Position numbers and translations under genes: made by a program
In this document: positions 1-53,727 of the stretch, one piece after another
Position numbering within the stretch: the first letter of the stretch is position 1
Layout: each line of letters opens with the position of its first letter
Assembly (NCBI RefSeq): GCF_030704535.1
Contig: NC_081817.1
Coordinates: 27,901,001 to 27,965,000, forward strand
DNA from: Vitis vinifera
Lineage: Eukaryota; Streptophyta; Magnoliopsida; Vitales; Vitaceae
Direction: 5' to 3'
DNA length: 64,000 bases
Notes under the pieces: generated by a model
Database searches by the model: none
Seen by the model: the letters and a program-made list of their open reading frames with translations, nothing else
What the model was told of the DNA's origin: nothing

Positions 1-1116
1 GACGAGTTCCCTTTGGAATTTTATTTTATTTTTTTTTAAAATATAAAATTTCAAGAGACGAGTTCCTTTAGGAAAAAAAATATATTTTTTAAAAAATATT
101 TTTTTTTTTACATGGAACTCGTCTCTTCAAGAGACGAGTTCCCTTTGGAATTTTTTTTTTTTTTTTTTTAAATTTGGGATTTTTTAAAATAAAAAATATA
201 TTTTTTTTCCTAAAAGAACTCGTCTCTTGAAATTTTATATTTAAAAAAAAAATATTTTTTTTAGATGAGAACTCGTCTGTTAGGAATTTTGAGGAATTGT
301 TTTTTTTTTTTTTTTTAATATATATATATATTTAAAAAAATAGTTTTTTTTACATGGGAACTCGTCTCTTGAAGAGACGAGTTCCCTTTGGAATTAATTA
401 ATTTTTTTTTTTTTTTTTTTAAATTTGGGATTTTTTTTTTAATATATATATATTTTTAAAAAAATAATTTTTTTTTTACATGGAACTTGTCTCTTGAAGA
501 GACGAGTTGCCTTTGAAATTTTTTTTTTTTTTTTAATTTGGGATTTTTTAAAATAAAAAATATATTTTTTTAAAAATATATATTTTTTTACATGGAACTC
601 GTCTCTTGAAGAGACAAGTTCCCTTTGGAATTGTGTGTGTTTTTTTTTTTTTTTTTAATTTGGGATTTTTTTTTAATATATATATATTTAAAAAAATATA
701 TTTTTTTTTACATGGAACTCGTCTCTTGAAGAGACGAGTTCCCTTTGGAATTTATTTTTGTTTTTTTTAAATTTGGGATTTTTTAAAATAAAAAATATAT
801 TTTTTAAAAAATATATTTTTTTTACATGGAACTCGTCTCTTCACTTTGGAATTGTGTGTTTTTTTTTTTTTTTTTTAATTTGGGATTTTTTAAAATAAAA
901 AATATATTTTTTAAAAAATATATTTTTTTTACATGGAACTCGTCTCTTCAAGAGACGAGTTCCCTTTGGAATTTTTTTTTTTTTTTAAATTTGGGATTTT
1001 TTAAAATAAAAAATATATTTTTTTTCCTAAAGGAACTCGTCTCTTGAAATTTTATATTTAAAAAAAAAATATTTTTTTTTAGATGAGAACTAGTCTGTTA
1101 GGAATTTTGAGGAATT

Positions 1117-1161
<45 letters not shown>

Positions 1162-1473
1162 TATATATATTTAAAAAAATATTTTTTTTTACATGGGAAC
1201 TCGTCTCTTGAAGAGACGAGTTCCCTTTGGAATTAATTTTTTTTTTTTTTTTTAATTTGGGATTTTTTTTTTAATATATATATATTTTTAAAAAAATAAT
1301 TTTTTTTTTACATGGAACTCGTCTCTTGAAGAGACGAGTTCCCTTTGGATTTTTTTTTTTTTTTTTTTTTTTAATTCGGGATTTTTTAAAATAAAAAATA
1401 TATTTTTTAAAAAATATATTTTTTTTTACATGGAACTCGTCTCTTCAAGAGACGAGTTCCCTTTGGAATTGTG

Positions 1474-1507
<34 letters not shown>

Positions 1508-2161
1508 GATTTTTTTTTTAATATATATATTTTTAAAAAAATATTTTTTTTTTACATGGAACTCGTCTCTTCAAGAGACGAGTTCCCTTTGGAATTTATT
1601 TTTGTTTTTTTTAAATTTGGGATTTTTTAAAATAAAAAATATATTTTTTAAAATAAAAAATATATTTTTTAAAAAATATATTTTTTTTACATGGAACTCG
1701 TCTCTTCACTTTGGAATTGTGTGTGTTTTTTTTTTTTTTTTTTAATTTGGGATTTTTTTTTAATATATATATTTTTTAAAAAATATATTTTTTTTTATCT
1801 TTGGATTTTTTTTTTTTTTTAATTTGGGATTTTTTAAAATAAAAATTATATTTTTTAAAAAATATTTTTTTTTTACATGGAACTCGTCTCTTCAAGAGAC
1901 GAGTTCCCTTTGGAATTTTTTTTTTTTTTTTAAATTTGGGATTTTTTAAAATAAAAAATATATTTTTTTTTACATGGAACTCGTCTCTTGAAGAGACGAG
2001 TTCCCTTTTTGAAATTTTTTTTTTTTTTTTTAAATTTGGGATTTTTTTACATGGAACTCGTCTCTTCAAGAGACGAGTTCCCTTGAATAATTGTTTAGAA
2101 TTTTTTTAAAATTATATATATATTTTTTTTCATGGAACTCGTCTCTTGAAGAGACGAGTTT
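1..2161. repeat. T-rich palindromic tandem satellite with higher-order structure
   Basis: About 20 imperfect units of roughly 80-125 bp. A typical unit has a long T tract, the phrase aatttgggatttttt, a run of A/T inverted repeats and a palindrome with 14-nt arms (GGAACTCGTCTCTT and AAGAGACGAGTTCC) around one central base that is G in some units and C in others. Good palindromes lie at 114-142, 357-385, 714-742, 935-963, 1196-1224, 1314-1342, 1432-1460, 1558-1586, 1879-1907, 1976-2004 and 2053-2081. Variant half-palindromes occur near 207, 268, 1033 and 1084, and a deleted form near 828 and 1692. These variants return in the same order, which gives a period of about 830-865 bp. Short open frames starting with Met-Glu-Leu-Val-Ser-Ser are by-products of the repeat. 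The array runs off the left edge of the window. Confidence 0.9.
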
Positions 2162-2172
2162 GCTTTTTTTTA

Positions 2173-7300: not shown

Positions 7301-10300
7301 TGAATGGTACCCATTAAAGAAATCACAACTATCAGGCATCATTCTCCTCTCCCAATGACAGATGGGCCTCTTACATCTGTTAATGGATCAGAAGTCATGT
7401 CTATGTTATATGATTCTTATGGTTATAATTAGCAGATAAAAGCACGCCCACATCCTTATAGCTGGAAATGAAAAGCATATGGGTATGCTCACCTTTTAGG
7501 ATACTGTAAAATGATAAAGTAAAGGGAACAAGAGTTTGGCCACTTGTGAAAGATATATTGCTGTTCTTTTATTCTTCTAACACTAATAAATTAGACACCA
7601 GGATCTATCACAGGCGATCAGACACCCCTGTTGTTTAACTTTCCAGAAACTCTGGGAAGTTTAGTTCAGATTCTCAGTTTAAACTAGGGTTTTGTTTATT
7701 GATAATGCAATGGCCAAGGATTTTTATGGCATGTTTTTTGGATTGTCTGTGAGGTTGGTTATGTCTTAGAGGTAATCTGAATGTTCTTAAAGCTTGCAGT
7801 TGTTTTGCTGCCTGACTTTCCAACTGTTATAGCCAGGCACTTAGGCCCTATTCCCAATACTTCTTTTTCCTGTACTTCTAGTTTTTCTAAATATTATCTG
7901 TCCTCAGCACCCCTAACATCTTACAGATATGCATTCTTGTTAAGAAATATCTATTTATTTTTTTCACTGAGTTAACCAGATAGGGAAAATTGCCTTAAAC
8001 CTTTCCTAGTTTCCTTATAAATGATAAAGATGTTCTTGAATTGCAGTTAGCTTCACTCAAAAACATGAGGTACGGCAGGTCTATGTTCGAAGTACGGCTC
8101 GAGTCTATGAGATGTACTGGGCACCTGATCTGCAGAGTATCAATGAATATCTCTGTACTGTTCGCTGCAGCATTGCTGCCAAAGATGAAAAATCACTTCA
8201 TGCAACTGATATTGAAGAACCTGTTTCTGCAAAAATAGAAGGGTCTGATGGGAAACCGGCTGAAGAGAATTTGAAAAATGGCAGTAGTGTTAGCTCAAAT
8301 GAAGATGGCTGGGTGGAGGTAAAAGTTCCTGATTCCCATTCACTTGATAACAGAAGCAGTTCTTTGCAATCAAAGATTAATACCAATGTAGGAAGGATCT
8401 CACAGGTATGTGCTTCACTTTTTGACAACATACATTTAACCAAATCTTTTTCCTGTCCTGTCTTCTTGATGTTTGTCATAGGGGTTTCTTCCATGGTTGC
8501 TTTCCATGTCTTGACAAATTTTACTTTTTAGTTTTGTACCAACCCACCAGAGAAGAATAACAACAACAACAAATAACCATTTAAAAAAAATAACACAGTA
8601 AAATAGCTCATTCTCTTCTCCCTTGTCACCGATATTTAAAATGCTAGAATAGGTTTACTTCAGGATTGAAGTGTGGTTAAGGTGATATTTTAGGGGAAGT
8701 AGCAATAAAAGTGGTTCATGATTTGGCTTTTTTTTTTTTTCCAAATGTATGAGGAGATATATAGCTGGTCAAAGCTTCAGCACAAAACACAGATTGATGA
8801 AATATGTTGACCTTATGTGGTGACCCTCCTGATACCCACCATGAAAACACACATTCAGACAGTGAAAAGGACTCCTAATGATTTGACAGTACTTTTGGAA
8901 GGGATTTTGATAAAGTAGTGTGTCATGTTGGCTCTTGAACTAAGCAATGCTAACTCTTTGACAGAAGGGTACAAATAAAGGGAAATTTGATGATACAGGA
9001 AATAAGGCACAAAAATACAATAGAAGGGAGAATTAGGGTGGGTCTTCATAGAAGTTAACTGAGAATATAGGAGAACCATCAAAAAACACTCACTAACATA
9101 ATATGCTTTGTTACTAATTGAAGTAAACTTTCAGGATTTTTATGAGGCTACAGCAGAGATTTCTGATGCAGACCCTTGCATATCCCTTACACTTCGATTG
9201 CTGTCGCTTCAGAATAAAGAATGTGTATATGTTGACGAAATTTATGTGTTTGCGGATCCTGTTGTGTCAGACAGTTCAGACAGTCAGGTGGGATGTGTGG
9301 AAAACCCAGCTGGAAGTTCTCTTATGGCCATGCTTGTGCCTACCCTTTTGCAACTATCTAAAGCAGGGATTAACCAAAAACAAGCTAAAAGCGTGCCTGA
9401 TACAAGGGAAGATCAGAGGTTCTCAAAAATTGGGTCAACAGCAACTGATTCGGCCAATATTTCAAATAAGATTCAGCTGGAAGGAAAATCCTGCCTTCCT
9501 GTTCAGCAGGAAGCACATGAGGCTGCTGCTGAACAAGCCCCTGCCTCGGTGAAGATCTCCAACCTAGTTGCAGGGAGCAAACCTGATTCTGCTGCAAAAG
9601 AAAATAATTTGCCGTACAATCAACTTGAAAAAACCATGGAACAGCTTGTTTTGCGAGTTGGCAGAATAGAATCTCTCTTTTTGAGGTTTGAAGAAAGCAT
9701 GCTAAAGCCCATAAGTAGCGTTGAGGCCAGGCTCCAACGAGTGGAGCAACAACTGGAAGCACTCACCAAGAAACTCGAGGGCCCTGGAGTCATCTCTAGC
9801 ACCAGAATTTTTGCTCCTGAATTTCAATGCAATGAATCAGATTCCAACTCCTGTACTGAACCAAGTGATTATCCTAGTCATGGAGCATTGGAATGTGATA
9901 AGAAGGATTCAGTAAATGCCTCTCTCCTGCTCCCTAGTCTTGTGGTTATTGCACCAGAGTTTTCAAATGGTGATGATGAAGAAAATGATGCATCAGAGCA
10001 AGTGAACGATTCTCAGAGGGATGAAATCAGAGAAAATGATGCATCAGAACCAGTGAAGGATTCTCCCAGGGATAAGCCAAAACATACCATGTCAGTTGAT
10101 GATGCTTTAGCTTCTGCACTCGCTGGATTTCTATCATCCACTTCTACCAGGCCATCAAAATATACTGAAACTCTGACAGTTAGAGCTCCAGAGTTTCCAA
10201 GTGAAGAAGATAGTAGTGAGGACAAAATAGCTTCACCAAGAGTTCATCGTGAAATATCTAATGGGACAGAGAACACTAAGGATTCTATTTCAACTTCCTG

Positions 10301-10976
10301 CAATCTTTCTTCTTCAGAGAGTGGTGTGGAAGTGGATAATGACATTTTGGGTGAAACAGCTGAAGGAATTGAGAAACAGGGCCAGCTTGGTTATGACGGG
10401 GAAGAAGTCAATTCTGGGGAATCTGCTATCAGCTTTTCGATTGTTGAAGAAAATATGACTGCATCCAGAATAGATGATCATCAGACCATAGAAGAAACCG
10501 ACAAAACAGAGGCTAGCAGCATTCCAATTTCTGATGAAATTTATGTTCCTATCCATTTTCTTGGAGACCAGATTGATGATGGCTCCGATACTCCCACTCC
10601 CCAGAAAGAAACTGTTGAAAGCACTTATCTAACTAATGCTACAGAAGTTAAAGATGGACAAACTACCAAAGACATTCTGCAAGATGTTCTCCAATTCTCG
10701 TGTTCTTCTGCAGTGGATTTCCAAGTTCCAATATTGGATGTGAAGTTCATTTCTCAGGAAAATTCCAATACCAACTCCTCTCTTGAAGGCCTTCTGACCG
10801 ACACCCCAGAACCCAACTCATCCAACCTTGAAGCTTCTTGCATTGAGGAAACCACCAACAACCATCTTTTGTTGGACTTTGACAGTTACACTGAGGCGCC
10901 TGCAGGTATGGAGGGTGAAAAACTGCAGGACCCTCACACATGCAGCAAGGATGGACCGTTCGAGAGTCTCATATAA
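4367..10976 (+). CDS. Plant protein of unknown function with central coiled coil, three exons, 796 aa
   Basis: Exons are 4367-4556, 8047-8405 and 9135-10976. All have GT-AG borders and the phases agree (one base carried over intron 1, none over intron 2), giving 796 residues ending in TAA. Residues 1-63 are acidic and Ser/Pro-rich. Residues 64-230 look globular (ISFTQKHEVRQVYVR, then VYEMYW, and after exon 2 YVDEIYVFADPV). That pattern suggests a beta-sandwich, perhaps galactose-binding-like, but this is inference. Residues 345-397 form a heptad-rich coiled coil (LEKTMEQLVLRV onward). The rest is acidic and probably disordered, with the motif APEF at 410, 456 and 534 and a duplicated ENDASE(Q/P)V segment near 465-485. 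I see no signal peptide or membrane segment. The conserved-looking exon 1/2 join and the long intact frame argue for a real gene. I do not recognise a named family, and cell location and partners are unknown. Confidence 0.82.
4688..5150. repeat. Diverged tandem duplication near the 5' end of intron 1
   Basis: About 4688-4925 and 4955-5150 align along their length. Shared phrases are tttgtttccgtggaaagtta, ctttgtcg, acagagtttgaatttt, atgttgaatttt, ggtttatgtttc or cttatgtttc, and gagaaactaaa. This is a duplication of roughly 200-250 bp inside the first intron of the 4367-10976 gene. Confidence 0.75.
5450..7270. repeat. Ancient tandem duplication within intron 1, one copy carrying a retroelement tail
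   Basis: Unit A (about 5450-6470) and unit B (about 6550-7270) share ordered, diverged blocks. The A/B pairs include gaattgcctttattgatgt with caaattgatgtgttgaataa, gtttaagatgg at 5790 and 6918, ggcaataagaa at 5881 and 7037, gtaagggagg with cataagggagg, and ttttcttctttcaa at 6393 and 7193. Unit A is longer because it contains the retroelement-like piece at about 6160-6335. Confidence 0.65.
6160..6335 (+). mobile_element. LINE 3'-end-like fragment with GT microsatellite
   Basis: The stretch gattggcttagctctaagtaaggagag resembles the phrase gattgagctccaagtaaggtgagg at 19490-19520, which precedes a LINE-type tail. It contains (GT)n at about 6275-6294 and ends gcctacaaataaaataaag. It lies in intron 1 of the first gene. 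The match is short, so the call is tentative. Confidence 0.4.
7271..8046. other. Remainder of intron 1 with no recognised element
   Basis: Ordinary intron sequence leading to the acceptor ttgcag at 8041-8046. I see no mobile-element or gene signal in it. Confidence 0.5.
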
Positions 10977-24500: not shown

Positions 24501-27500
24501 GATCATGGGCTTCTTCTTGAATGTAGTTTAGTTCAGTGAGAAGTATCCTGCCAATCTCATAAATTAGTCATGTTCAGTTATGCTGAATAATTTTCTTGGA
24601 TTGTAAGTTCATTTTGTAAGAGTTATTTGGAAAACTAACATGTGGCATACCTTCTCTCAAGGTAGTTCTCAAGCTGCTCTGGTTAGTCTGAGTATGTGTG
24701 GAATGATCTAATTCATTTTTGTGACCTAAACTACTAGCTTGCTGGATTCATTTTCAGTTAGGGAATGATTTCATTAGGGCCTAAGAGTTATTGCATGGGT
24801 TAGTAAGAGGTAGAAGTTGGGAAATTCCATTTCGAGAGTGAGTGATGCAGGTTGCGTACTTCTCCTAAAGAGGCTTGTTCTTATCCAGTGACTTTTGACA
24901 TGGATGCTTGTTGGACACAACTAGATATGTATTAACAAATTTATATTTAGACATAATTTTTGAAAAATTGGATACCTTCAAATATGTTCAGGATATCGCT
25001 TGAGGTGTTTAGGATTCAGCAGGTTCAAATCATTATTTTCTTTCGGGGAAAAAAAAAAGTCTAGGATTCTTCCAAAAATGTGGATCTTTTAAAAAAAATG
25101 TATAAATGATAACCTTTATAAATCATAAAAGCGCATCTGATAAAAACAAAAGTCATAAAAGCGCAAGCCATCTTATGTAAATAAAGAAATGTGATCAAAA
25201 GGGCTACTGGTACTCAAAGCTGCATAGCATTATGTACCATTTGTGATTATAGATGTGCATTCTAGGGGAACTGGTGAATTGAATTTGGTCCTATCAAAAT
25301 CAATTTCAGTTTCTTGAATATTATATATACCATATCTTGTAATACATTTTTTTTGATAGGTAAAGGAAAATTTCATTAAAAGCCAAAGAGGCTAAAGAGT
25401 ATACACGGAGTATACCAGAGAACAAAAGAACAAAAAACAACAAGGCAGCAAGCATGTCCCTTAGTTGGTAGCTAATCAGTCTACAAAATCAATCAAAGAG
25501 AAAGTGTGTTCCTCTATATACACCCTAGCCCAATTCACAAAAGTGTACAAAAAAATAGATTTAATTTCTTGGTCATTCCTCTCAACATCGTTGAAGGCCC
25601 TCCTATTCCTTTCTTTCCAAATGGTCCACAACAAGCAGAGGGGGGCAGCTCTCCAAGCTTTCTCCATTTTCTTGCCCACAAAAGAACCATGTCATCCCAA
25701 GAGGTTCCTCCTAACAGAGGAGTGCATCACCCATTGCACCCTAAAAAGGGAGAAGATCAGAAGCCTTAACATTCTAGCCTTCTCACAAAACAAAAAAAGG
25801 TGATATGTGGTTTCCTCTTCATTTTTGCACAGATAGCACCTGTTGGGGATGTTCCAACCACTTCTCTTTAGGCAATCAATGGTGAGTAGCTTGCTCCAAG
25901 CCGCCTCCCAACCAAAGAAGTTAGCCCTAATTGGAACCCAAGGCTTCTAGATAACTCTAGCTGGGATTTCTTTTCGAATCTTTTTTTGGTAGGTAATTTT
26001 AACCTGGAACCACCCTTATCCCCATCCCAACCCCATGGCAGTTGAGCCAAGTCTCTTGTGCTTATGCACGACCATCCTTTTGTTTTGGTAAATCCATCTT
26101 TCGCAACATTATAAGTTATTTAATGATGAAAGAGAATATGATGTCAGATTATAGACCTATTAGCTTGGTTACAAGTTTGTATAAGATAATTGCTAAGGTC
26201 TTATCAAGGCGTTTACGCGAAGTTCTTCATGAAACAATCTCTGGTTCTCAAGGAGCCTTTGTTGAAGGGAGACACATTCTAGATGCTGTGTTGATAGCCA
26301 ATGAAGTGGTGGATGAGAAAAGAAGGTCAGGGGAGGAAGGAATTGTTTTCAAAATCGATTTTGAGAAGGCCTATGATCATGTGGATTGGGGCTTCTTAGA
26401 TCATGTGCTTCAAAGGAAGGGGTTCAGCCAGAAATGGAGATCATGGATAAGGGGTTGTTTGTCTTCTTCTAGTTTTGCAATCCTAGTTAATGGGAATGCA
26501 AAGGGTTGGGTTAAGGCTTCTAGAGGTTTGAGACAAGGAGACCCTCTCTCTTCTTTCCTTTTTACTTTAGTAGCAGATGTTCTAAGTAGGTTGTTGTTCA
26601 GAGCAGAGGAAATTGGGCTTACTGAGGGTTTTTCTGTGGGGAGGGATAGGACAAGAGTGTCTTTGTTACAGTTTGCAGATGACACTATCTTTTTCTCTAA
26701 AGCCTCTTTAGAACATCTTCAAAACCTCAAGATTATCCTTTTGGTTTTCGGGCAAGTTTCTGGTTTAAAAATCAACTTAGAGAAAAGCACCATTTCAGGT
26801 ATTAACACTAGGCAGGAGCTATTGTCTAGTCTGGCCTCAGTTTTTTATTGTAGAGTGTCTGAGTGGCCTTTATCTTATTTAGGTCTTCCTTTGGGAGGGA
26901 ACCCAAAGACAATAGGCTTTTGGGACTCGGTGGTTGAGAGAATTTCGAGAAGATTGGATGGTTGGAAAAAGGCCTATTTGTCTTTGGGAGGGAGGATTAC
27001 GTTAATTCAGTCTTGCTTGTCTCACATCCCTAGTTACTTCCTCTCCCTCTTTAAAATCTCAGCTTCAATTGCCTCAAAGATTGAGAAGATGCAAAGGAAT
27101 TTTCTATGGTCTGGGGCAGGGGAAGGGAAGAAAGATCATCTTGTCAGATGGGAGGTTGTTAGCAGACCAAAGGAGTTGGGAGGTTTGGGTTTTGGGAAGA
27201 TTTCTTTGAGAAATATTGCTCTCTTAGGGAAATGGCTTTGGAGGTTCCCTAGAGAAAGGAGTGGTCTTTGGCATAAGGTTATAGTGAGTATATATGGGAC
27301 ACATCCTAATGGATGGAACGCCAACATGGTGGTTAGATGGTCACATAGATGTCCTTGGAAGGCTATTGCTCAAGTTTTCCAGGAATTTTCCCCTTTTGTT
27401 CGCCTAGTGGTGGGCAATGGGGAGAGAATTCGCTTTTGGGAAGATCTTTGGTGGGGTAACCAATCTTTGTGCTCGCAATTTGCTGATCTTTATAGAGTTA

Positions 27501-30500
27501 TTTCTGTGAAAAACCTCACTGTTTCGAATGTCCTTGACAATTCCTTTCCATTAGCTTGGAATTTAAATTTTCGTCGCAATCTTACCGATTCAGAAATTGA
27601 TCTCCTTCAGAGATTAATGTCCTCCCTCAGTTCAGTGCGTTTCTCTCCTTCTTTGGCAGATTCTAGAGCGTGGTCTTTGTCTTCGTCAGACTTGTTTTCA
27701 GTGAAATCTTTTTTCTTGGCCTCGTCAAAAGTCTCTAATCCTATTTTGTTCCTTCCGGCCAAGTTTTTGTGGAGTTCAAAAGTCCCTTCAAAGGTTAAGG
27801 CCCTCGCTTGGATAGTAGCTCATGGGAAGGTGAACACCAATGATAAGTTGCAATTGAGAAGACCCTACAAGTCCCTCTGTCCTCAATGGTGCATTCTTTG
27901 CAAAGGAAATGGAGAGTCGATTGATCACCTTTTTCTTCATTGTCCTGTTACCATTGGACTCTGGAACAAGTTGTTCAAGCTAGTTGGGTTGGATTGGGTC
28001 CCTCCAAGGAGTTTTGAGGACATGTTGGTTATTGCTTTTAAAGGCTTGGGGAACTCTTTAAGAGGCAAGACTCTTTGGCAAGTTGCTTGCCTTACTTTGG
28101 TTTGGATAGTGTGGCAAGAGCGAAACAATAGGATTTTTAAGGATAAGGGGAGATCGGAAGAGACGTTATGGGATTTGATTTTGTTCTATTCCTCTCTTTG
28201 GGCTTCTTGTTCTGCAGCTTTTAGAGGAGTTCCTCTAAATGTGTTACAACTCAATTGGAGTGAGGTTTGCGCTTCAAAAGTTTGAGTTTGTGGGGGTTTC
28301 TCTTTGTTTTTAGCTAATGTTGGGTGTTTTTTTGTTGTTCAGATTGTGTAGGAAGGACCTCTCATCCTTCTAGTGGTTTCTTTTGTTTCTTCTTTCTTTT
28401 CTTTCTCCTGTATCTTTCCTTCTATTAATATATTTCTCTTCGTTTCTGATCAAAAAAAAAAAAAAAGAGAATATGATGTCATCATTTGTATCATAAAAGT
28501 TGGCCTAAGTTGGGAGGGGGAAATATGGAAAGAAAAGCCCACTTAGTCAATTGGAAACTGGTGTGTGTGGGTAAGGAGAAGGGGGGCTTGGCTTGAGGAA
28601 GCTAGTTCTCTTGAACAAAGCCTTGCTTGGTAAATGGGTTTGGAGATTCGCTCGGGCCAAGGACGAGCTGTGGAAGCTGCTCATGGCGAAATATGGGCAA
28701 GAGGACCTTGGTTGGAGGACTAAGAAGGCAAATGGGGCGTTTGGTGTTGGGGTTTGGAAGGAAATTTTGAAGGAATCTGATTGGTGCTGGGATAATATGG
28801 CTTTCAATGTGGGAAAAGGCACCAGAATCAGATTCTGGACTGATCCTTGGTGTGGGGGTGTTGAGCTGTCCCTAAGATTCCCTCAGCTCTATGCCGTGGC
28901 TGCCCATAGGAACGCCACGGTGGTAGAAATGTGGGACCAGAATTCTGGTCAAGGAGGCTGGAATTTAAGGTTTTTCATAGATTTCAACGATTGGGAGTTG
29001 GACTTGGTAGGTGAATTACTTCAAGCCTTAAGGGGTCAAAGGGTTACCTTGGAGGAAGACTCGGTTTTTTGGAAGGGAGGAAAAAACGGGCAGTTTGGTG
29101 TTAAGAATGCATACAGCTTGTTGATCAGCCCCATTGCCTTCGTTTTCCCCAAAAAAGGCATTTGGGTGGATAGAGTCCCAATTAAACTAGCGTTCTTTGT
29201 GTGGGAAGCCACTTGGGGGAAGGTTCTTACCCTTGATAGACTTCAAAAGAGAGGGTGACAACTTCCTAATCGATGCTTTTTATGTGGTAGCGAAGAGGAA
29301 AATGTAAATCATTTGCTCATTCATTGTACAGTGGCCAGAGTGTTGTGGGAGATTGTCCTTGGTTTGTTTGGTGCCTAGTGGGTTTTTCTAGAAACTGTAA
29401 AAGAGGTTCTACTTAGCTGGAAGGGCTCTTTTGTGGGTAAAAAGAGGAAAGAAATCTGGAGATCCATTCCGTTATTTATTTTTTGGATGGTTTGGAAGGA
29501 GAGGAATAAACTAGCTTTTAGGGGGGGAGGGGGGAGTTAGCTATTCAGAAACTTAAAAATTCTTTTGTTTGTAATGTGTGGGGCTGGGCAAAATTGTATA
29601 GTGGAGTGGAGCCGCGCTCCCTTATAGGCTTCTTGGAGTGGTTAACCTCCATTTAAGGGTTGGTATGTTTTTTGTCTTTTTTTGGTTATGAGGCCTTTGT
29701 TGCTTTGTATACTCCCTGTATGCTATGTGGCTTTTTTGCCTTGTGTTAATATATTTCGTGTTTACTTATCAAAAAAAAAAAAAAAAAAAAAAAAGCTAGC
29801 CTAAGTTAACACTAATCAATTTTTTTTTTCTTTGATAGGTAAATTTTTTGTCCCTATTGGGACTTGAACTTGGAACCTCCCATAAACCCTCCTCATCCCT
29901 TTAACACCAATCAATATTATTAAGGATAAAAGGTTGCATACACTTGACTTTATGGAATTTTGTTTAGTGTGATGCTATTAAGACATGTGCTGCATATTGA
30001 AACACATCCTTTCTAGTGCCTTACTTTCATTATGCATTAACACCAAAACGGTTGGATCTGAGTCAGATACTTTGGTCCTCCCTTTTTTTGGTTCTGGTAG
30101 AATCATTTACTGCCATGTTACATTTTAGTTTTTGGTGTTAATGGATTTGGTCCCTGAAGCACCAACATCAAATGATTTGATATGTGTTCCATCTAGTTAG
30201 AGAAGGCCTTGATGAAGGTAACATAATTTCTTGATCTGGAGGAACCTTTTCCTCGTGCTGCTGACTTCAGGTGATTTTGCTCCCTAATGCAGGTTTTGAG
30301 GATAGGTTCCAGAAAGAAGCTAGCCTATGCTCCTCAGCTATTCGTCCTTCACTTGTAAAGGTAATTTCTAACATTTCTATTAGATCAGTCCTACCTATCT
30401 CACCGATCAGCATTTATTCCAGAAAGTTAATTTGTTTTGAGCATTTATGAATTTCTTTTCAAACCTTGTTATTGTTGCTTCATTGGATCTTGCATGTGAT

Positions 30501-39100: not shown

Positions 39101-42100
39101 ACAAAACAAAAAGAAATCAATATAAAGTAATAAAACTATTTTAAAGATATAAAGTAATCAAAATTTTTTTGTCTCGCTTTTGCTTTGAGGGGTTTTTTTT
39201 TCTTGGATAACACTTTTTGATGTGGTACAAAAATGTCTTCTCGTACCATAGTTTTACCCTCAAATATAATCTTGGGTATTGTAAGAATTACTAGGTTTAA
39301 AGCCATAATTCACACATATTTCTAAATATATCTCTAGAAGAAAAAAAATAGGTTAATATATATCCATCCATCATAAGTATTATGAACTTTTTATATGATA
39401 AAAGAGATTATTAAGATTTAGTTATTTCATTGAAGGTCATGATAGTATGACTCTCCCTTATCAACTTGATTCAAATCTCTAAATAATTGCAATAATGTAT
39501 TACTTCAAATAAATATATCATTATTTGATGCATTTTTTCCTTAGTGCATGACACGTATATTACAATGATTAGGATAAAGTGTTGCAATCCCATGAGAATA
39601 GGTTAAATCCAAAACCCATTTTCGATTCAATTGTAGACTACAACTTACTTGCATGAAACCATAATCGACGACTCTTGATTGCTAATGGGTCATATAGTTT
39701 GGTGAAATAATTCCATTGTTTTGTATGCATTACTTGTCATACTATAAGAGTCGATCATGCTTGAAGTCTTTACCCTAATCACTACTAATTGAAGTTCAAT
39801 AGAGAAAATAAATCATATATTATTTATGCAGGAGATTTTCATGACTTTTGTCAACTTTTAAAATGTTTCAATTATTTGGTGTAAGTAGACCGTAAGATTG
39901 ATGTCTATAACGTAAAATACTTCTAGCATTCTTGCACATAATTTTAAATATATTTTTATATAGAAGTGATCCATATCTATTTTTCATTAGTTTATAAGAT
40001 GGTTTAAAGTGATTATTAAGACTTGAATATTGTTTCATTGAGAAACATGCTAATATGGCCCGGTCTAGAATGAGTTTTTGGCTTTGGTTCAAATTTCATT
40101 GCTAAGTAAATCTTTGATATTTAGCTAGGTCATTTTAAACAAATGTGATCAACTACTTCAAAAATATATTCTCGTTTGATGCAACTTTTTTCTTATGTCT
40201 TAAGGGATACCCATGCTACAATGGTTACAAATGATTGCAATCCCATGTGGGTGAGCTAACTTTAAAAGCTGGCTCCCATAGAATTGGAATCATTATTGAT
40301 TTTCGATCAATCATGTAGTGGTAATATTGTTCCCAAGTGTTGTATACCCACCATCTCTTCCTATATTGGGGTTTGGTTTGAACTTGGGCGTGGGCGTGGG
40401 CCTGGCCCTGGAAGCTACAGTTTGGGATGACCCACCTCTCTTATTCTCATGAATCACAGCCTTACACTAATGCTTGAAAATTCCAATATTCTTATTTTTT
40501 TTCAATTAATAGTCTTGGTCACATCTTGGGTTAGGGTTTGGTAGAGATCCTTATTCATTCTTAAGAACATAAAAAAAAATTTAAATATAAGATGAAAAAA
40601 TCTCCTCCTGATTTTCTCTCTTTTTCTTTTATATTTTGTCTATAATTAGACAATAGAATTAGTATTCATTTATTTTTGCCTCCTTGTCTTTTTTTATTTT
40701 ATTTTTTTTTAATTTCTAAAGAGAGGTTTAGTATGAATGGTGGCAAAGGGGGTGTGATTCATGTGGTTCATGGGGACACGTATTTGCCTCATAAAGTCAA
40801 ATTTATTGATAAAATAGTGATTGGTTAGCTCAAAAAATGCAATGTGAGCACCAAGCAAGGATTTCCATATCCTTGAGTGGGTATGATTTTGTTTGTTTCT
40901 TTAAAAAGTTGGCTAACTCTTTTAGGTAATTTAAGGACAAATGATAATTTTTTATTTCTTTTAATATTTGAGTAATGAAATTGAGACACTTGTCATGTTG
41001 GATATGGCACATCTAAACCCTAGGTCAAGTCACATATCGAGCTTAAAGAACCAACACAAGAATAACATTTAAAATAAGATAAATGCGGCTACAATTTAAA
41101 AGCAATGTTTTTTTTTATTGTTTTAATTATTTATTGAAGATTATTTTGTTATTTTTTCAGATTGAGCCTTGGACATGAAAAATTAGGATATCTTAAAAAA
41201 AAAAGTTACATGTGATCCAAATGATTCATCTTTGGCATTACATTTTATAACTTTTTGTTTAATTTTATGCAAAATCATTTGTCTTTGCTTGAAAAAGTAA
41301 TTGAAGAGGTAGGTTAGAGTGAATGGTGTCCCTTTTTGTTCATAATGTATATTTGTTAAAAATAAAAAATAAAAAAAAATAAAAAATAAAATATGAATTA
41401 AGCTAAATAAATTATTTGTATTTTCTTTTATGTTCAACCTTACAAAATCTCATTAATCACGATGTTCATTTGTTTTTTATTTACTTTTTATTTTGTATGA
41501 CCTCATAAAATCTTATCGACTTGATAAAAACATTATACCATGATTATGATACCTTCATAATTAAAGAAAAAAATTCATATTATTATATAAATAATAGACT
41601 CCTCTTAATTATATAGGAATCTTTAAAATCATGAAAAAACCGAGAATTTAGAATGGGTGATTTCTTTATTGGAGGGAATAGACTTCAACATTTAATGTGG
41701 AAAACATATAAATTTGTAAAAAATATCATACATACAGGCAACTTCTAAATTATACGTGCACATCCTTGAATCATACAACTTCTATGAGAGGTAGACCAAC
41801 CCTTACACAAACATTTTCATAATATTTGTTTTTCCTCTCTCTCTCTCTCTCTATGTATATACTTCTCATTTTTTTTGAAGTCAAATGAAGCTTTGTTCAC
41901 GTGTGGCCTTTACACTTTGAGTAATGATGATTAATACAAAGAAACATGTATAAGGTGTCATTATCAAAGTTATGGCTCTCTGGTTTATAGCACCTAAGGC
42001 CCTGCTTGGGACCATTCTATATATTATTGTAGCCTGGTCCATTACCTACTTTGATTTGGGCATGATTTGGATGCCCAATCTACTATCTTTTTGCTTTTGG

Positions 42101-42409
42101 TTGCAGCCCATCATCGTCAATGGAGCCCATACTGATAGGAAGTAGAATTCAATCTCTCTATTAAAAAAAATTTATTGAATGCAACAACATTGTCTGCTAA
42201 CACATACTAGGGTTTTACACATTATCAACTGCAAACTGAGGTAAGAACAAACCTTAACTGCAATGAATCACTAAATCCCACCAAAGTATCCCTAATTGCA
42301 GTATATAATCCATACATTTTTGTTGTTTTAACACATAAATTAATAGAAACTATATGTATAAATAATAGATATTTACAAAACCCTAGCTGGATAATTCAAC
42401 CTCTTCTTC
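36181..42409. other. Gene-free region between LOG and the polygalacturonase cluster
   Basis: About 6 kb of mostly AT-rich DNA. I found no supported gene, RNA gene or named mobile element. The part from about 41740 to 42409 is the 3' flank of the first polygalacturonase copy. Blocks of it recur beside the second (49560-50660) and third (58550-58890) copies, for example ctaaggccctg, cctactttgatttgggcatg and ctagggttttacacatt. Confidence 0.5.
38258..38394. repeat. 67-bp tandem duplication
   Basis: Two copies with a period of 67 bp, each starting acaataattaacatatataa and ending aatggattaaactac, with a few differences in the middle. Confidence 0.85.
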
Positions 42410-45400
42410 TCAAGAACATGTTGGAGATACCCTACCCCTAGTCTCCAACTCCATGACATTCATACACGTAGAGTTCGCTTCTCGGTCCTCTTCGTATGAT
42501 ACTAGGTCTATATCCTGCAGCACAATGCCTTGGCAAGGGAAGGTGCTGCTGCAGTTGAATTTTATGGCCATTTCTGATGCACTTGTGCCTTTGATGTTCT
42601 TGTAGACTACGCCTTTTATTTGGACAGCCGAGTCCTGCAAGCCATTGGATGGAGAATAGTTGTGTGGAAGTCAGACAAATGAAGGGCTGTGATTGAGTTT
42701 GAAGTTGATGATTAGGGTTTACCTGTTCTTCGCATGGAGTGTCTTGATCACAATAGTTTTGGTCTATGATTATGGGATTGCTCACATTTTCCATTATAAT
42801 GTTTTGAAATACTATGTTTTTAGCATACCCTGATCCTCCCTGCATCAAAACAACAAAGCAAAAGAATATTAGTTTTGGGTGTTCAACAGTGTAAATAAAT
42901 TGACAGATTTTTTCAAATTAATTGCTTTCTACATCACATACAATGATACAATGATAGTTATTATTATTTTTTTTTTTTTATAGAAATATGGTAAGGATAT
43001 TCTCGATTTTATAAATCCTTACTTACTATGATAAATTAATTTCACTAGAAGTTGAATAACATATCCTACCGCTATGATTTTACTTGTCTATACATCATTT
43101 CATTCGATATTTTTAGATCCCACCTTTGTTTTGATGGTTACATATCACTATGTAGTTAAAGCATTTCTAATTATGAATAGACTTCTATGACCATAACATA
43201 TTTGTAATTTACTTGAACATGAGCAAAATTGCTTGGGGGATTTTTTTTCCATGATTGTCATTTATTTGTTTTATCTTCTGTGGGTAATATAATATGTCAA
43301 TAAAAAGCTTACCATATATAAGAATAATATAATATCAATTGTTCTTTAGTCATGCACACATTTATATATACATTTGATTGTGTGTGAATATGACTAAGTT
43401 ATATAGGACACTTAAGAAAGGATGATTCAAAGCCAAGTCTTTGTGTGTGAATATGACTAAGTTATATAGGACACCTAAGAAAGGATGATTGAAAACCAAG
43501 TCTTACCTGCCAAGTCTTTATTCTCACTCCATTGGTGGTTCCTATGAGTTTTGCCTTATTCACCATCACATTTGAAACAAAGGCTTCTGAATTTCCTTCT
43601 CCTAAGCTCCCAATGCTGGAAATGAAAATCATGTGAAGTGGGTAAGGGAAAGGTAGTTGAAATTGAACCATGTTTATCAGAATGTTCTTCAAAAATAGAA
43701 CATTTTAGGGTAACAAACCCTTCCTTGATGTGATACAACTACTGTACAAAAATGCCTTTGACTTTTTAAAAGAAAAAAAAAATGCATGAAATGGCATGCT
43801 GTTTTCTCTATCAAGTTTTGTTTAATAAATGACTAAAAGTCTGAAAAAACACTTCAAAGATTGCGTTTAACTTACTTTTGTTAAATTATTTCTTTTGTCA
43901 ACTAAACTTTTACAATATCAATGCTTTTAATTTTATAGGAAGCTTGGAAAGGTAGGAAGAAGAGAAAGGATTAAGATTAAGGTTTAATGGGGGATGTACA
44001 AGATAAAGCCTATGAGGATGATTTTCAATTGAAAAAAAAAAAAAAAAACCCGGTGTTGATCAAGATTTAGCAGTGGGGTCATTTAGTACTATTTCTCAAT
44101 TTGAAAAAAGGAAACCTCCGATGGATGCTGTTAGAAGTCTCAAACTATTTGTCCACGTAAATTAAATTCGAATTATAAATACTTATAATTTTATAAAAAA
44201 TTATATAAAAATATTATATTTGCCCTCCTTGGGAGTTGGAACTAGTTGAGTATAGAGTTGGTTCAAGTTGAGATATTGAACCTGATTCCATGACCTGGCC
44301 CACAGGTTACATCCAGGGCTTGAACATTTTTGGACCCATTTACAATGGAAATGCAGTCATCACCTTCAACCAACATAAAACAAAAACATCAAAGTCTCAT
44401 GAAAGATCAAAAGTCCTCTTATGTCAACAATATTCAATTATTTTTTTTCTCTAGGTTTAATTACCTGTTCTGATAACACTGCTAATGATCTGAACATTTT
44501 GAGAGCCTGTCACATGAATTCCATCAGTGTTGGGGCTGTCCTCTGGTGCAGTCAACATGACATTAAAAGCTTGAACATCCACAGATTGCTCAAACCTAAC
44601 ATGCATTTGCTGGGCATTCTTTATATTGAGGCCACACACTCTCAAATTCTCGCATCGCCTGAAGGTTACCGCCTGTAAACCAAAGGAATTCGATAAAAAA
44701 AGACCGTCCCCATCTATTATTTCATGCTAAGTAAAAGCTTTACAAGACAAAGATTGGGGATCAAGGGACTTACAGTTGGTGCCACAGTGCAAGGCTGCAT
44801 GTAAAAGTACTAGTAATTAGTCCTTATTAATGACAAATAGAATTCAATTAAGTCAAAGGATTTCTCATACTTGAGTTTTGTTGATCTTGCATGAATTTTT
44901 CCACCATATCTTTCCATTGCCATCGATGGTTCCTTGACCTTCTACTATGAAGTTTTTTATGTTGTTGAACAAGAGCCAATGCCTCCTATCTTTCGCATAG
45001 TCAGAACGATCGTTGGAAGCCACGATCATTCCCAAGATCTGGTATGTTTAATCATGAAAGATTTTGAGTTTTTGGGTGATGGAACTATGGAATTTGATCA
45101 TACTCTACATATAATTAACTAAACTGATGATCACCTTTAACATTACAAAATCAGATTTGCAAGGGCCTGAAAAAGTAATTGGCTTAAGACGGTACTTTTT
45201 CTCAGGGACAACAAGCACACCTACGTTTGAAGAACAAGTCTCTTTCCAAGCTTTCTTGAATGCCTAAAAACCGAAAAATGAATCAGAATTCAATCAAACA
45301 GAGTTGAAAACTATACCAATTACTGTCTCCATTGTTGATGGTACCTCAGTATCATCTGTTATTCCATCACCTTCTGCTCCATAATCGTCAACATTCACCT

Positions 45401-45674
45401 CTCCCAGCAAGGTTGCAGGAGTACCCAGCTGATCATATCTCATGGAATCGATGATTTCAGGCTCGTACTCCATCTTCAGGTTCGCGAACCTCTCCTCAAA
45501 GTCATCATTCCGGTCATCATGAATGGTGCCAAAGAATGAAGGGTAGGCACTTGGATCATAACCAGGTGCTTGATCAAGAAAATTAGCAAGAGGGTCATCC
45601 TGGAAACTGCTAGAACACAAAGAAGAAGAGATCAAAGTGAAGAAAAGTGAGAGAAAAAGGCTTCGTGGGAGCAT
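42410..45674 (-). CDS. GH28 polygalacturonase, secreted, nine exons, 462 aa (first copy, intact)
   Basis: Minus-strand exons are 45345-45674, 45135-45263, 44871-45038, 44774-44794, 44465-44672, 44282-44363, 43507-43615, 42723-42839 and 42410-42634. Every border is GT-AG and the phases agree, giving 462 residues. The enzyme family cleaves alpha-1,4-galacturonan in pectin outside the cell. Residues 1-24 form a signal peptide (SLFLSLFFTLISSSLC). All four GH28 motifs are present: NTD at 264-266, GDDC at 286-289, GHG at 309-311 and RIK at 344-346. The Asp residues of motifs I and II are the expected catalytic ones. An acidic propeptide-like segment (about 25-85) precedes GEVNVDDYGAEGDG. Exon 4 is only 21 nt. 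An upstream in-frame ATG at 45687-45689 would add five residues. Endo- or exo-activity cannot be decided here. Confidence 0.93.
43378..43505. repeat. 63-bp tandem duplication in intron 7 of the first polygalacturonase
   Basis: Two near-identical copies start tgtgtgaatatgactaagtt (43381 and 43444) and run to ccaagtct. The second copy ends right beside the donor of exon 7 (43507). The second polygalacturonase has a single copy at about 51750-51806, so the duplication arose after the genes separated. Confidence 0.85.
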
Positions 45675-45754
45675 TTTGTGAGAGATCAAAGCTTGGTAGA
45701 ATGGTCTAATGAGAGTAAAACTGCTATGTCATGGTGGGCTTAAGGGGCTTATAC

Positions 45755-45762
45755 ATTTATAG
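45755..45762 (-). promoter_or_regulatory. Putative TATA box of the first polygalacturonase
   Basis: The minus strand reads CTATAAAT about 80 bp before the ATG at 45674. The second copy has the same word at the same relative position (53720-53727). Confidence 0.6.
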
Positions 45763-48700
45763 AAAAAGTGAACTGAAGTTGGTTTTGGAAGAGAAATATG
45801 GAGATGAGAATGGAGAATGTGGACAAGCAATTGGATGATTGAGAATGATTTTTCATGAGTAGAGGTATAGATTGGGGTATAAGAGATTGAGACGAAAGGT
45901 TTACTTGTTTGTTTAGCAAGACTTTAACCTCACATTTTCTCTATGACGAAGAAATTCAGTGGTTAGTTACTGGTATTACTTGTGTACCAACTCAGATCCA
46001 TCAGCAAACTACGCATTACTTTCTACAAATATCTATAGAATGGTATCATCACAAACTTTACTCAATCGAGTTCTCTCTCTCTCTCTCTAGATATATATAT
46101 ATATATATACACTATAATTCACATTTCATTGCTATATGAATTTTCAAATACAATGATTAATGAAATAATAAGTGTGATTTGAATAATACATCTCTTTTTG
46201 GGGTTAATCCTCCTTGACATCTATTCACATGGGAAAGATCTTAGTTGACATGCCTTATTGCATTGAAGATGACCCGTCTTCCAATTAGCAATGCTAAAGC
46301 AGTTCTTCATGAAATGACTTGTTTAGAAAGTGTACTTGGAAAAAAAAAAAATACAAATTAACATTATTCAAATTCATATAGATATGGTTTAGTATTGGGG
46401 TCAAACAGCCATGGGTATATATAGAATATATATCCCATGCATTTTGATTGTGTAAATTTTGAGCAAAAGAAAAAGGGTGTTAACCAATTACCTATCTTAT
46501 CTCATGCACATGTCTATCACCATCACATAATTAATAGAATCATGCTCGTCAAAATCAACTTGGTAATCATCACCAAATACCAAAAATATGGACCCCAACC
46601 CATCCAAATGAGGTGGGTTTTGGTTGAAAAGAAAACCTTTTGTCAGATTAGGCAGCATTGTTACCAATGTACCTTTCTCTAAAATGTTAAATTTGGAGAG
46701 ATTGAACCCAATTATGAATCAAAATTTATCAATTTTATTTTAAAAATATTTTCAATTCTTTTAGCATTTTAAGAATGAGTAAATGCTAGATTTTTCTATC
46801 AAAGCCAAACAATAAATAAGTGCCCTTAGCCTTGATAAAAACAAGTCATTTCTCTTTGAGTCCATACTATTCAAAAGGAGTATAATATTTTATGTATTCA
46901 AATATTCTAATTTGGATTTTAAAATGTTACAAAATTTTGTGTTTACAAAATTATAAGATAAATCAATGTATTTAGTAAAAAACAAAGAGTCAAAGTTGTT
47001 TTAAATAAATTCAAAATTCAGGTCATGAGTGAGCTTGGGTCGGTTTTGGGTCACATGGATTCAAGCTAGGAGCCCCAAACATGACCTAATTAAACACCAT
47101 AGCCAACAATATGAAAATGACAAGAATAAATAAGAGATGATATTGTGAAAGAGGTGGGGGCTAAGGTTGGGTAGAGTGAGTTAGGGATGTTAGAAGTATC
47201 AATCTTTTTAGGTAATTTAGTAGCTTGTAAAGAAGGTGAGTTTATAGTAAGAGAATGGGATTGGCGTGTGGTTGTGGGAGTGAAACAAGTGTTATAAAAT
47301 AGCATCATTAAGACTTGGCGTGGTGTGTTTGTGAAAGTGCATGGAGAGGATGATGATGATGGTGATGGAGTATGGAGTATTTAAGTTAGTTGTTCTTGTC
47401 ACCACTCTAAGGCACCTTGTCTTTGAGACATAATTAAATTTTTAAGACTTCTTTGAATGATGCTTTTTTCAATAGATAGTTAACTAGTCACCTAATTGTG
47501 TTAGTTCTTGAAATGGGTATTTGTTTTTTCTTCTTACTATAATCTATTTTGTTTTATCTTCATTAATCTATTGGAATGGTTGTGAAATTTTTAGGTTATG
47601 TTTGGTTCTAAAAAATTTGAGAGAAAAAGTGAAGAAAAAAAATAGAAAGGAAAAAAAAAGAGGAATAGTGAAAAAAGAAAAAATGAAAATAAATATAAAA
47701 TAAATAAAATCTTTTTATACATTGTTTTAGATTTTTTTAACTTATTTTCCTTGATTTCATAAAAATTTTAAAATTTTAAAATATATAAATTTATAATTAT
47801 ATTTGATTTTCTTTTATATTTTTTTATAGTGAAATTAAATATAAGAAAACTATTTTTCTTAATGTTTTTTTTTTTAATTTTTTCTAATTCTTTGTTAAGA
47901 TGTTATTTATCAAATATTATTTAGAAGCTTTTTAGAAGAGAAAGTGAAAAGTAATTTAATCATGTCGAGAAGTAATTTGATTACATTTGAAAGGAAAATT
48001 TTCTCCAAATACCTTGTAATATGATTATCGTAATTCAATTATTAATATTTAATTTCACTTGAACAAGTGATCAAAACATGAGGATATGACACCTTTGTGA
48101 TATTGAAGAATTAATCGACATTCATAATTAATCTAGGTTAACATCATATATGAAATATAAGAAAAAAAAAATTCTACATATTTCTATTACCTTTGGATTA
48201 AAAGTAGTTGTTGCCTGTGGATTAAAAGTAAATGCTCTAAAAACAATAATCAATTTTCAAGTTTCAAATTTTTTCATGATGATTCACATTTCCTACTGCA
48301 TTTTCTTTATTTTTTATACATATATATATATTTTTAATTTCTTCCTTTTATTCCCTCTCATCATTGAAAGACAAAATCTCTATTTGATTGATTTTTCATC
48401 AATTTGATTAGTCCACTTAGTCTATTAATTAGAAATAAAAATAAGAATAAAAATTCATTCTTATGAAATCAATTTTACTTTATATATCAGATTTTGATCG
48501 TTTTTTATTTATTTTTTATTTATTTTATTTTTTATGATGTGACTATCTTTATTCTCACTTCTATTTTCACATGCCTAATGTGCACCCATTCACATATGAT
48601 ACTTAATCCACTTTTCTATTAGGTGAACATCATATAGTATTAAGTGAAAGATTAGTTAATTAATGGTTTATAAATTTGGGTTTTCCTAATTTGTCATGAT

Positions 48701-50745
48701 GTAGTCAAATTAAGACATGAAATTTAGAATTTGATGACATGTAGCATAAGACTAATTAGAAGTGTCACCTTAATCATTGTTTAGTTGAATTTTAGATTTC
48801 CATTTCCAGGCAACCAAGCAAAGATGGATTGTGTGACCTTCCTTCCTTGGTCTTTTGGCTACTTGATTTGGATGAGGAATGATAGAGAACTTGGTTTCAA
48901 TTATGAAACATTTAATCATTGGATTGTTTGAATGTAATAGAATTATTAGTTGATTTAATTGTACTAAAATCTTAGGGCATGTTGAATTTAGAATCTTAGA
49001 TGAGTAATTTTTTTAAATATTTTTAATAATTAAAATAATATAAATTTAAACCATTGATATATCTTATTTCAACCATTCTCTATCTCTATCTTTAAAAACT
49101 TTTGTTAAGGGACAACCAGAAAAATAATATATTAATGCTATTCATTATTATTAAAAAAATTAAAAATTTTAAATATTAATTATGAAAATCTATAAAATTA
49201 TACAATCAAAATACTAAAAACATTAAAAAAAAAAAGAGGTTTAGATTTTATAAAAAAAAAATCACCATTAACCTTTAAAGGAAAATATCAAAAGAATTAA
49301 AAAATAGTAAGAAAAACAGTTAGAAAATTTCAAATTGGGTTGGACTTTTCAAGGTTTGTTGCTTGTGGGTTTTGGGCTTTGATTGGACAACCCAGCTCAA
49401 GTAGGCCCACAGTGTTATCGGCCTAGCAGGCCCAATAGTTCCCACTACTTTTGGGCTCATTTAGGGATTGAACATGGAAGTTCGGAATTAGTGATTTAAC
49501 TATTTCTGTGTATTTATTTAAGATGAAAAATATATAAATTTTTTGAATTTCTGTTAATTATGTGGACTCATTTGATAGATAACATCTACATGATATGATG
49601 AAGCAACCCTTGCACATAGAATTTTCTCATAGTGTTTGGTTTTTCTTCTTTATCAAAATTATGGCCTCTAGTTTATCTGCTAAGGCCCTGTTTGGAACCA
49701 ATCTATACTTGTACTGAAAAGCTGGCTTGGTCCATAACCTACTTTGATTTGGGCATGCTTGAAGTATTATGACAATGTTTTGGTGTGTAGGAATGAACAT
49801 TTTATTCATTTTTTCTCATTTGTTTTCATATTTGGATAACTTAAATGATAATAAGATTGAAAAAAAAAACCTAGTAAATTTTTTTTTTTTTTATGATTAA
49901 TTTATCTTCATTATTGGTAGGTATTTTGATTCCTTATGTTAGAATTACTATTTTATCACATCATTTTCATTAGGTTTGTATGATTTTTTTATCATTAATT
50001 TTTATTTATTGAATGAATATTATTTTTGTTAGTTTATTATGTAGCTAGAAAAATCTCAAAAATGTTCTTTAAATGAAAATAAAAAATTATATTATATTGT
50101 GTAAGAGTATTATTGTCAATTTATTCAATCCTCCATTCCCATTCCCATCGTTACCAAAAATTGAAATGAAAACAAATTCCAATATTATATTCCTAAGTAC
50201 ATCCAAATACAAAAATTGAAATCGCTAAATTTATTCTTATTTAAATGGCTAAGCTTGTGCACAAAATTAATTCAATGAAAATATCATTTTCTTGCTTTAA
50301 CATAGTCCAACACACTTTTGATGGGTCTATATATTATCTATCAAGATGTTATATTTATTTTTCACACAAATTAATAAGATGACTTGGAGCCTAGACCTAG
50401 CCAACCCCCCCTCACCATATCACATATGCTACTTCTGATTGTAACAACATTGTGTGCTAGGGTTTTACACATTGTGCAACTTCAATATGAGTAACAACAA
50501 ACCATAGGTATAATCTTCATTGTAGTAAACCATCACCAAATCCCCCCAAGTTATCCCTAGTTGTAGTATATAATCCACGTGTTTCGCGTTTTTAACACAA
50601 ATGACACTTACTATATGTATAAGTAATTGATGTTTACAAACAACTTAGATGGATAATTCAACCTTTTCTTCTCAAGAACACTATGGAGAAACCCTCTCTT
50701 GTCTCCAACTCCATGACATTATTACATGCAGAGTTAATTTGCTTC
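45763..50745. other. Spacer between first and second polygalacturonase copies
   Basis: 45763-46700 is the 5' flank of the first copy and recurs, diverged, 5' of the second copy (53728-54780). Shared phrases include gagattgagacgaaagg, gattgtgtaa.ttttg.gcaaaag and ccaaaaatatgga. 46700-49550 is AT-rich with no gene I can support. 49560-50745 is the shared 3' flank of the second copy. AT and CT dinucleotide runs lie at 46076-46109. Confidence 0.5.
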
Positions 50746-53640: not shown

Positions 53641-53719
53641 TTTGTGAGAAATCAAAGCTTGGTATAATGGTGTAATGAGAGTGAACATGCTATGTCATTG
53701 TGGGCTTAGAGGCTTACAT

Positions 53720-53727
53720 ATTTATAG
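53720..53727 (-). promoter_or_regulatory. Putative TATA box of the second polygalacturonase
   Basis: The minus strand reads CTATAAAT about 80 bp before the ATG, the same word and spacing as in the first copy. Confidence 0.6.

Follow-up and report, generated by a model that had tools for sequence, protein, structure and literature searches.

The window, which is the whole stretch of DNA that we analysed (64 kb), begins inside an A/T-rich tandem array. The left edge of the window cuts this array, and positions 1-10 are the end of a right palindrome arm. The right end of the array is at 2162, and only 2.2 kb of it lies within the window, at its edge. The A/T content is 81% over positions 1-2175. 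No open frame of at least 130 codons overlaps the array. A CCTCTCT / CACCCTCTC microsatellite, detected with TRF at 2178-2329, starts about 15 bases past the right end. Farther on, a 45-bp tandem duplication is present at 2777-2868, with two copies and a TRF match of 100%.

The rest of the window presents features of another kind. In a domain scan over six frames, the open frame 26003-28285 matches RVT_1 and zf-RVT, and 28575-29258 matches zf-RVT. RVT_1 with zf-RVT presumably recalls plant LINE elements, and we note 26003-29258 as a LINE-type remnant. On the minus strand, 42438-42917 matches glycosyl hydrolase family 28 and is polygalacturonase-like. This match is included in a pair of diverged region copies (42000-46000 and 50000-54200), which align in five pieces and are 83-95% identical. 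The same scan gave no domain match in the frames 8040-8531, 9102-10976 and 45294-45728.

Palindromes and unit structure of the array

The units of the array are arranged head-to-tail, as those of a satellite or tandem repeat are. They measure 77-135 bp from the start of one palindrome to the next palindrome or half-palindrome. The TRF periods in the array include 77, 97, 107, 118 and 126. The spacers between palindromes differ chiefly by the length of their T runs and AT runs. They belong to two types, which partly alternate.

The palindrome consists of two 14-bp arms around a single base. It combines the perfect arms and the short spacer that are looked for in spacer inversion. We scanned the 64-kb window for GGAACTCGTCTCTT-N-AAGAGACGAGTTCC at no more than 3 mismatches. 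This pattern matches 14 sites, 11 of them exactly; the inexact ones start at 482 (2 mismatches), 594 (1) and 2134 (2). The coordinates that the first-pass annotation gave for nine palindromes are all correct on the scan. Those at 482, 594, 1976, 2053 and 2134 extend its list. At the same threshold, the 29-mer is absent from 100 dinucleotide shuffles and from the rest of the 64 kb beyond the array.

The central base is G in 8 of the 14 sites and C in 6, and never A or T. The switch between G and C noticed in the first reading is real in the sequence. Two further units, at 828 and 1693, keep a half-palindrome, and both show C at the centre. The features of the array are listed below. The strand signs of the 65-bp block are relative and do not refer to an ancestral orientation.

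1..2162, A/T-rich tandem array, right end (from base composition, TRF and unit lengths)
27..91, minus strand (relative), 65-bp block, inverted; as reverse complement 98% to 1007-1071 and 97% to 190-254; perfect A/T palindrome 75-90 at its right end
114..934, plus strand, higher-order repeat copy 1 (alignment)
114..142, no strand, 29-bp palindrome, centre C (pattern match)
190..254, plus strand (relative), 65-bp block in the other orientation, with a perfect A/T palindrome at each end (191-206 and 245-262)
357..385, no strand, palindrome, centre G; 31 bp long as 356-386 (pattern match)
482..510, no strand, palindrome, centre G, two arm mutations at 488 and 509 (pattern match)
594..622, no strand, palindrome, centre G, one arm mutation at 616; positional partner 1432 (C)
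714..742, no strand, palindrome, centre G; positional partner 1558 (C)
828..843, no strand, half-palindrome, centre C, right arm deleted
935..1797, plus strand, higher-order repeat copy 2 (alignment)
935..963, no strand, palindrome, centre C; positional partner 114
1007..1071, plus strand (relative), 65-bp block in the other orientation, with a perfect A/T palindrome at each end (1008-1023 and 1061-1080)
1196..1224, no strand, palindrome, centre G; 31 bp long as 1195-1225; partner 357
1314..1342, no strand, palindrome, centre G; partner 482
1432..1460, no strand, palindrome, centre C; partner 594 (G)
1558..1586, no strand, palindrome, centre C; partner 714 (G)
1693..1708, no strand, half-palindrome, centre C, right arm deleted; partner 828
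1788..1804, no strand, unit junction that lacks the palindrome entirely (TTTTTTTTTAT joined to CTTTGG, about 1798)
1879..1907, no strand, palindrome, centre C (pattern match)
1976..2004, no strand, palindrome, centre G (pattern match)
2053..2081, no strand, palindrome, centre C (pattern match)
2134..2162, no strand, last palindrome, centre G, with a degenerate outer end (pattern match)

The losses are thus of two sorts: one arm is missing at 828 and at its partner 1693, and a whole palindrome is missing once (about 1798). The arm losses at 828 and 1693 are probably one event.

Folded as single-stranded DNA, the 29-mer gives a 13-bp stem and a 3-base loop at -13.5 kcal/mol, the same for both centres. 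None of 200 shuffles reaches this energy. Many spacers contain a second perfect palindrome, AAAAAATATATTTTTT. Where two of these stand head to tail they form perfect 32-bp A/T palindromes (790-821, 897-928, 1393-1424 and 1655-1686), so those units hold two kinds of hairpin. The 65-bp block is present in two orientations. Therefore, a segment of the array has changed orientation at a visible scale.

Taken as a whole, the array is probably an A/T-rich local satellite of the plant nuclear genome. Most likely, it was amplified as a higher-order repeat and is either young or homogenised. It has no demonstrated function and, as a repeat, it is ordinary.

The central base and its surroundings

The two copies of the higher-order repeat provide five position-matched pairs of full palindromes. 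Their centres are C/C in 114/935, G/G in 357/1196 and in 482/1314, and G/C in 594/1432 and in 714/1558. In the last pair, the centre is the sole substitution over 114 aligned bases, and there is also a 21-bp tandem duplication. The spacer base of this palindrome is seen in both orientations with the arms and flanks unchanged. An inversion of one base is formally a transversion, and within a single sequence the two look alike. Besides its centre, the pair 594/1432 differs by one arm base and in the T and AT runs. The two switched pairs neighbour each other, and a single exchange between units could have shifted them together.

We compared the centres with the rest of the aligned sequence. With n = 5 and a test framed once the alignments had been seen, switched centres occur in 2/5 pairs versus 19/801 other aligned sites (Fisher p = 0.006), and some of these 19 differing sites are alignment effects within A/T runs. 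On the same terms, G/C swaps affect 2/5 centres versus 1/150 other G/C sites (p = 0.002). The half-palindromes are excluded from the five-pair test, and the sites of the pair 828/1693 (C/C) are counted among the others.

We also compared 65 columns (28 of the arms, 1 of the centre and 36 of a spacer block). Only at the centre does the same variant base recur. G/C swaps are also found off-centre: at 509, at 2162, and at arm position 12 in both degenerate copies, 268 and 1086.

The flanks are directional. CAT stands directly to the left of the palindrome in 14/14 sites, with an extra G in two of them. CTTTGG stands directly to the right in 10/14, and a degenerate form of it at 482, 1976, 2053 and 2134. 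Since the flanks hold one orientation, any inversion must be confined to the interior of the palindrome.

Centre states may be partly inherited with the spacer lineage. When 13 full units are placed on a tree built from their spacers, with the terminal unit 2134 and the half-palindromes set aside, at least 3 centre changes are required. The shuffled mean is 4.6 (P = 0.12), and exchange of units confounds this tree.

Two of the arm mutations are mirror images of each other. They are the C to T change at 488 (unit 482, arm column 7) and the G to A change at 616 (unit 594, column 23). Both are CpG-type transitions and they lie in neighbouring units. For this reason, two separate deaminations are a simpler explanation than inversion of a whole palindrome, which could also yield the pair. 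In none of the units is a mutation mirrored in its own opposite arm; homogenisation of the arms by template switching is not visible in them.

The arms are well preserved, with 3/364 substitutions in 13 units when the terminal unit 2134 is left out, and 5/392 when this degenerate unit is included. The 36-bp spacer block AATTTGGGATTTTTTAAAATAAAAAATATATTTTTT is substituted at 2/324 positions across 9 copies, 7 of which are perfect; these copies were chosen at no more than 5 mismatches to a typed reference, which biases the count towards conservation, and type-B spacers are left out of it. Arms and spacer block do not differ (3/364 versus 2/324, Fisher p = 1).

The first-pass annotation had described conserved arms among widely varying spacers. 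This is true mainly of the lengths of the T and AT runs, but not of substitutions. It had also derived a structural role or a mobile origin from the conservation of the arms. The equal conservation of the spacer block leaves that argument unsupported: inside this array, arms and spacer diverge equally, which is, on the scale of one array, the outcome that was named there, for copies across the genome, as contrary to the idea. With a spacer block that has changed as little as the arms, the array gives no sign of selection on the hairpin, and we reject selection on the arms. We attribute the uniformity of the palindrome to the youth or homogenisation of the entire array, and not to any special constraint on the arms.

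Known inversion systems and grape satellites

Spacers between inverted repeats are known to invert. In yeast (Saccharomyces cerevisiae), the reported inversions concern arms of more than 9 bp and spacers of 2-5 bp, and they are recurrent and reversible (PMC8604942). Perfect arms remained unchanged there in nine of ten genes (PMC8604942). The grape array resembles this system, as that report presents it, in its arms of more than 9 bp, its very short spacer, the reverse-complemented state of the spacer and the existence of two states. However, the yeast cases are 2-5 bp spacers in genes of different strains, and here the spacer is 1 base in units of one array (PMC8604942). As we understand its design, the yeast study sought multi-base changes, so single-base spacers would not be counted there (PMC8604942). 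Template switching is described as yielding inversion of the loop (PMC8794818). Likewise, plastid genomes are reported to present small inversions of hairpin loops, of 5-50 bp, which are recurrent (homoplastic) (PMC6342102, PMC12928735). The likeness consists of a loop between inverted repeats that occurs in both orientations. In contrast with those 5-50 bp inversions, here it is a 1-base centre in apparently nuclear DNA (PMC6342102, PMC12928735).

Among the described grape satellites, the nearest anatomy that we found is that of VvSat85, which also has a palindrome in its monomer (PMC10845522). Its monomer is given as 187 nt and its almost perfect palindrome as 43 nt, whereas the present units are 77-135 bp and the palindromes 29-31 bp, a comparison by lengths only (PMC10845522). 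One TRF period of the array, 107 bp, recalls VvSat1 and the 107-bp grape centromere repeat (PMC10845522, PMC10199708). Nevertheless, VvSat1 has 51% A/T on average, and the 16 grape satellite clusters of that survey span 48-77% (PMC10845522). The array, with 81% A/T and units of 77-135 bp, differs from VvSat1 by length and composition, the two traits compared (PMC10845522, PMC10199708). As far as the published descriptions go, VvSat85 does not fit the array by its lengths, nor VvSat1 and the 107-bp repeat by their A/T content; the array may still belong to one of these families.

The exact 29-mer has no match in viral contigs and in bacterial and archaeal genomes, as expected for a plant repeat. 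A distant blastn search returned one plasmid match, covering 4% of the query and lying mostly on a long T run, and none in phages. In a text search of the literature for the arm sequences, neither 14-base arm is among the matches listed. A text with the full arm would also match a 10-base part of it and rank at the top, so we infer that the arm is absent from all the matches of this search. Judged by title and the start of the abstract, none of the papers listed describes this repeat.

Proposed inversion of the centre and competing explanations

How could the centre change and the arms stay the same? According to calculation, an inverted repeat with 14-bp arms and a 1-base spacer is predicted to form a hairpin on a single strand. 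This hairpin could be extruded during replication or repair. The polymerase would then switch template inside the first arm, copy the tip of the hairpin from the other strand and return. With perfect arms, nothing would betray this event except the middle base, which would be reverse-complemented from G to C or the other way round. Such a hairpin could also be responsible for the units that have lost one arm or the entire palindrome.

The first-pass annotation had left the choice between inversion of the core and simple mutation. Inversion is the better supported of the two, though not proved. The recurrent change at the centre, the near-identical flanks and the inverted 65-bp block point to it. 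Our best reading, which we regard as reasonably probable, is a hairpin-mediated inversion of the 1-base spacer in a young or homogenised A/T-rich satellite. If so, the mechanism is most likely one that is already known, here at the smallest possible spacer.

The main rival is a single old point mutation at the centre, in either direction between G and C, which might produce a similar pattern if unequal crossover and gene conversion shuffled it among the units. Because identical arms hide the exchange, a centre mutated once would appear switchable. Rearrangement by units is indeed plain in the higher-order repeat, in the spacer types that differ after 828 and 1693, and in the high uniformity of the array. 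If conversion between identical palindromes had spread one G/C variant, the result would be hard to distinguish from inversion. The off-centre G/C swaps fit this explanation too, as does the lean of the centre state towards spacer lineage, which is non-significant (P = 0.12). Nevertheless, the sole recurrent variant would have to hit the exact point of symmetry (1 column in 65) and be a G/C swap, and no other variant of the arms or the spacer block has reached a second copy. We consider this origin possible but rather doubtful.

The remaining explanations concern the data and the nature of the palindrome itself. Copying in vitro is open to template switching at hairpins, and an event of this kind, or a consensus error at the palindrome centre, could have exchanged G for C in sequencing or assembly. 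However, it would be unusual for errors to reach roughly half of the units. Moreover, the other three of the matched full pairs show no difference at the centre, and the two half-palindromes, which have no second arm, form a C/C pair; an artefact is thus very unlikely. We give equally little credit to a functional palindrome (a protein-binding, replication or transcription element) under selection within the array. Its consensus is exact in 11/14 copies, but the spacer block is no less conserved (2/324 versus 3/364), and units without a full palindrome persist, with a half-palindrome in both higher-order copies (828 and 1693).

Least probable of all is a tiny fold-back mobile element, similar to a MITE, caught in the tandem array. 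The anatomy would suit, as it is an inverted repeat. However, the 29-mer has no copies beyond the array within the 64 kb, and no direct repeats were seen beside the palindromes in flanks judged by eye. Nor does the array overlap an open frame of 130 codons or more. Outside the array, at no more than 3 mismatches, the 64 kb contains no right arm and three left arms, each with 3 mismatches. We know of no MITE as short as a 29-bp palindrome.

Returning to inversion by way of the hairpin, a stronger version of it can be proposed, tentatively and at somewhat less than even confidence. Every palindrome would act as a reversible switch between G and C, which template switching would flip considerably more often than point mutation changes a base, and the array would be a natural repeated assay of this process. 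If this is true, such switches elsewhere would enter the record as transversions from G:C to C:G and would be missed by screens for multi-base changes. If the flipping is confirmed, hairpin-mediated inversion would become measurable in a plant nucleus by means of long reads. Likewise, some apparent G/C transversions at the centres of odd palindromes would be inversions of a single base.
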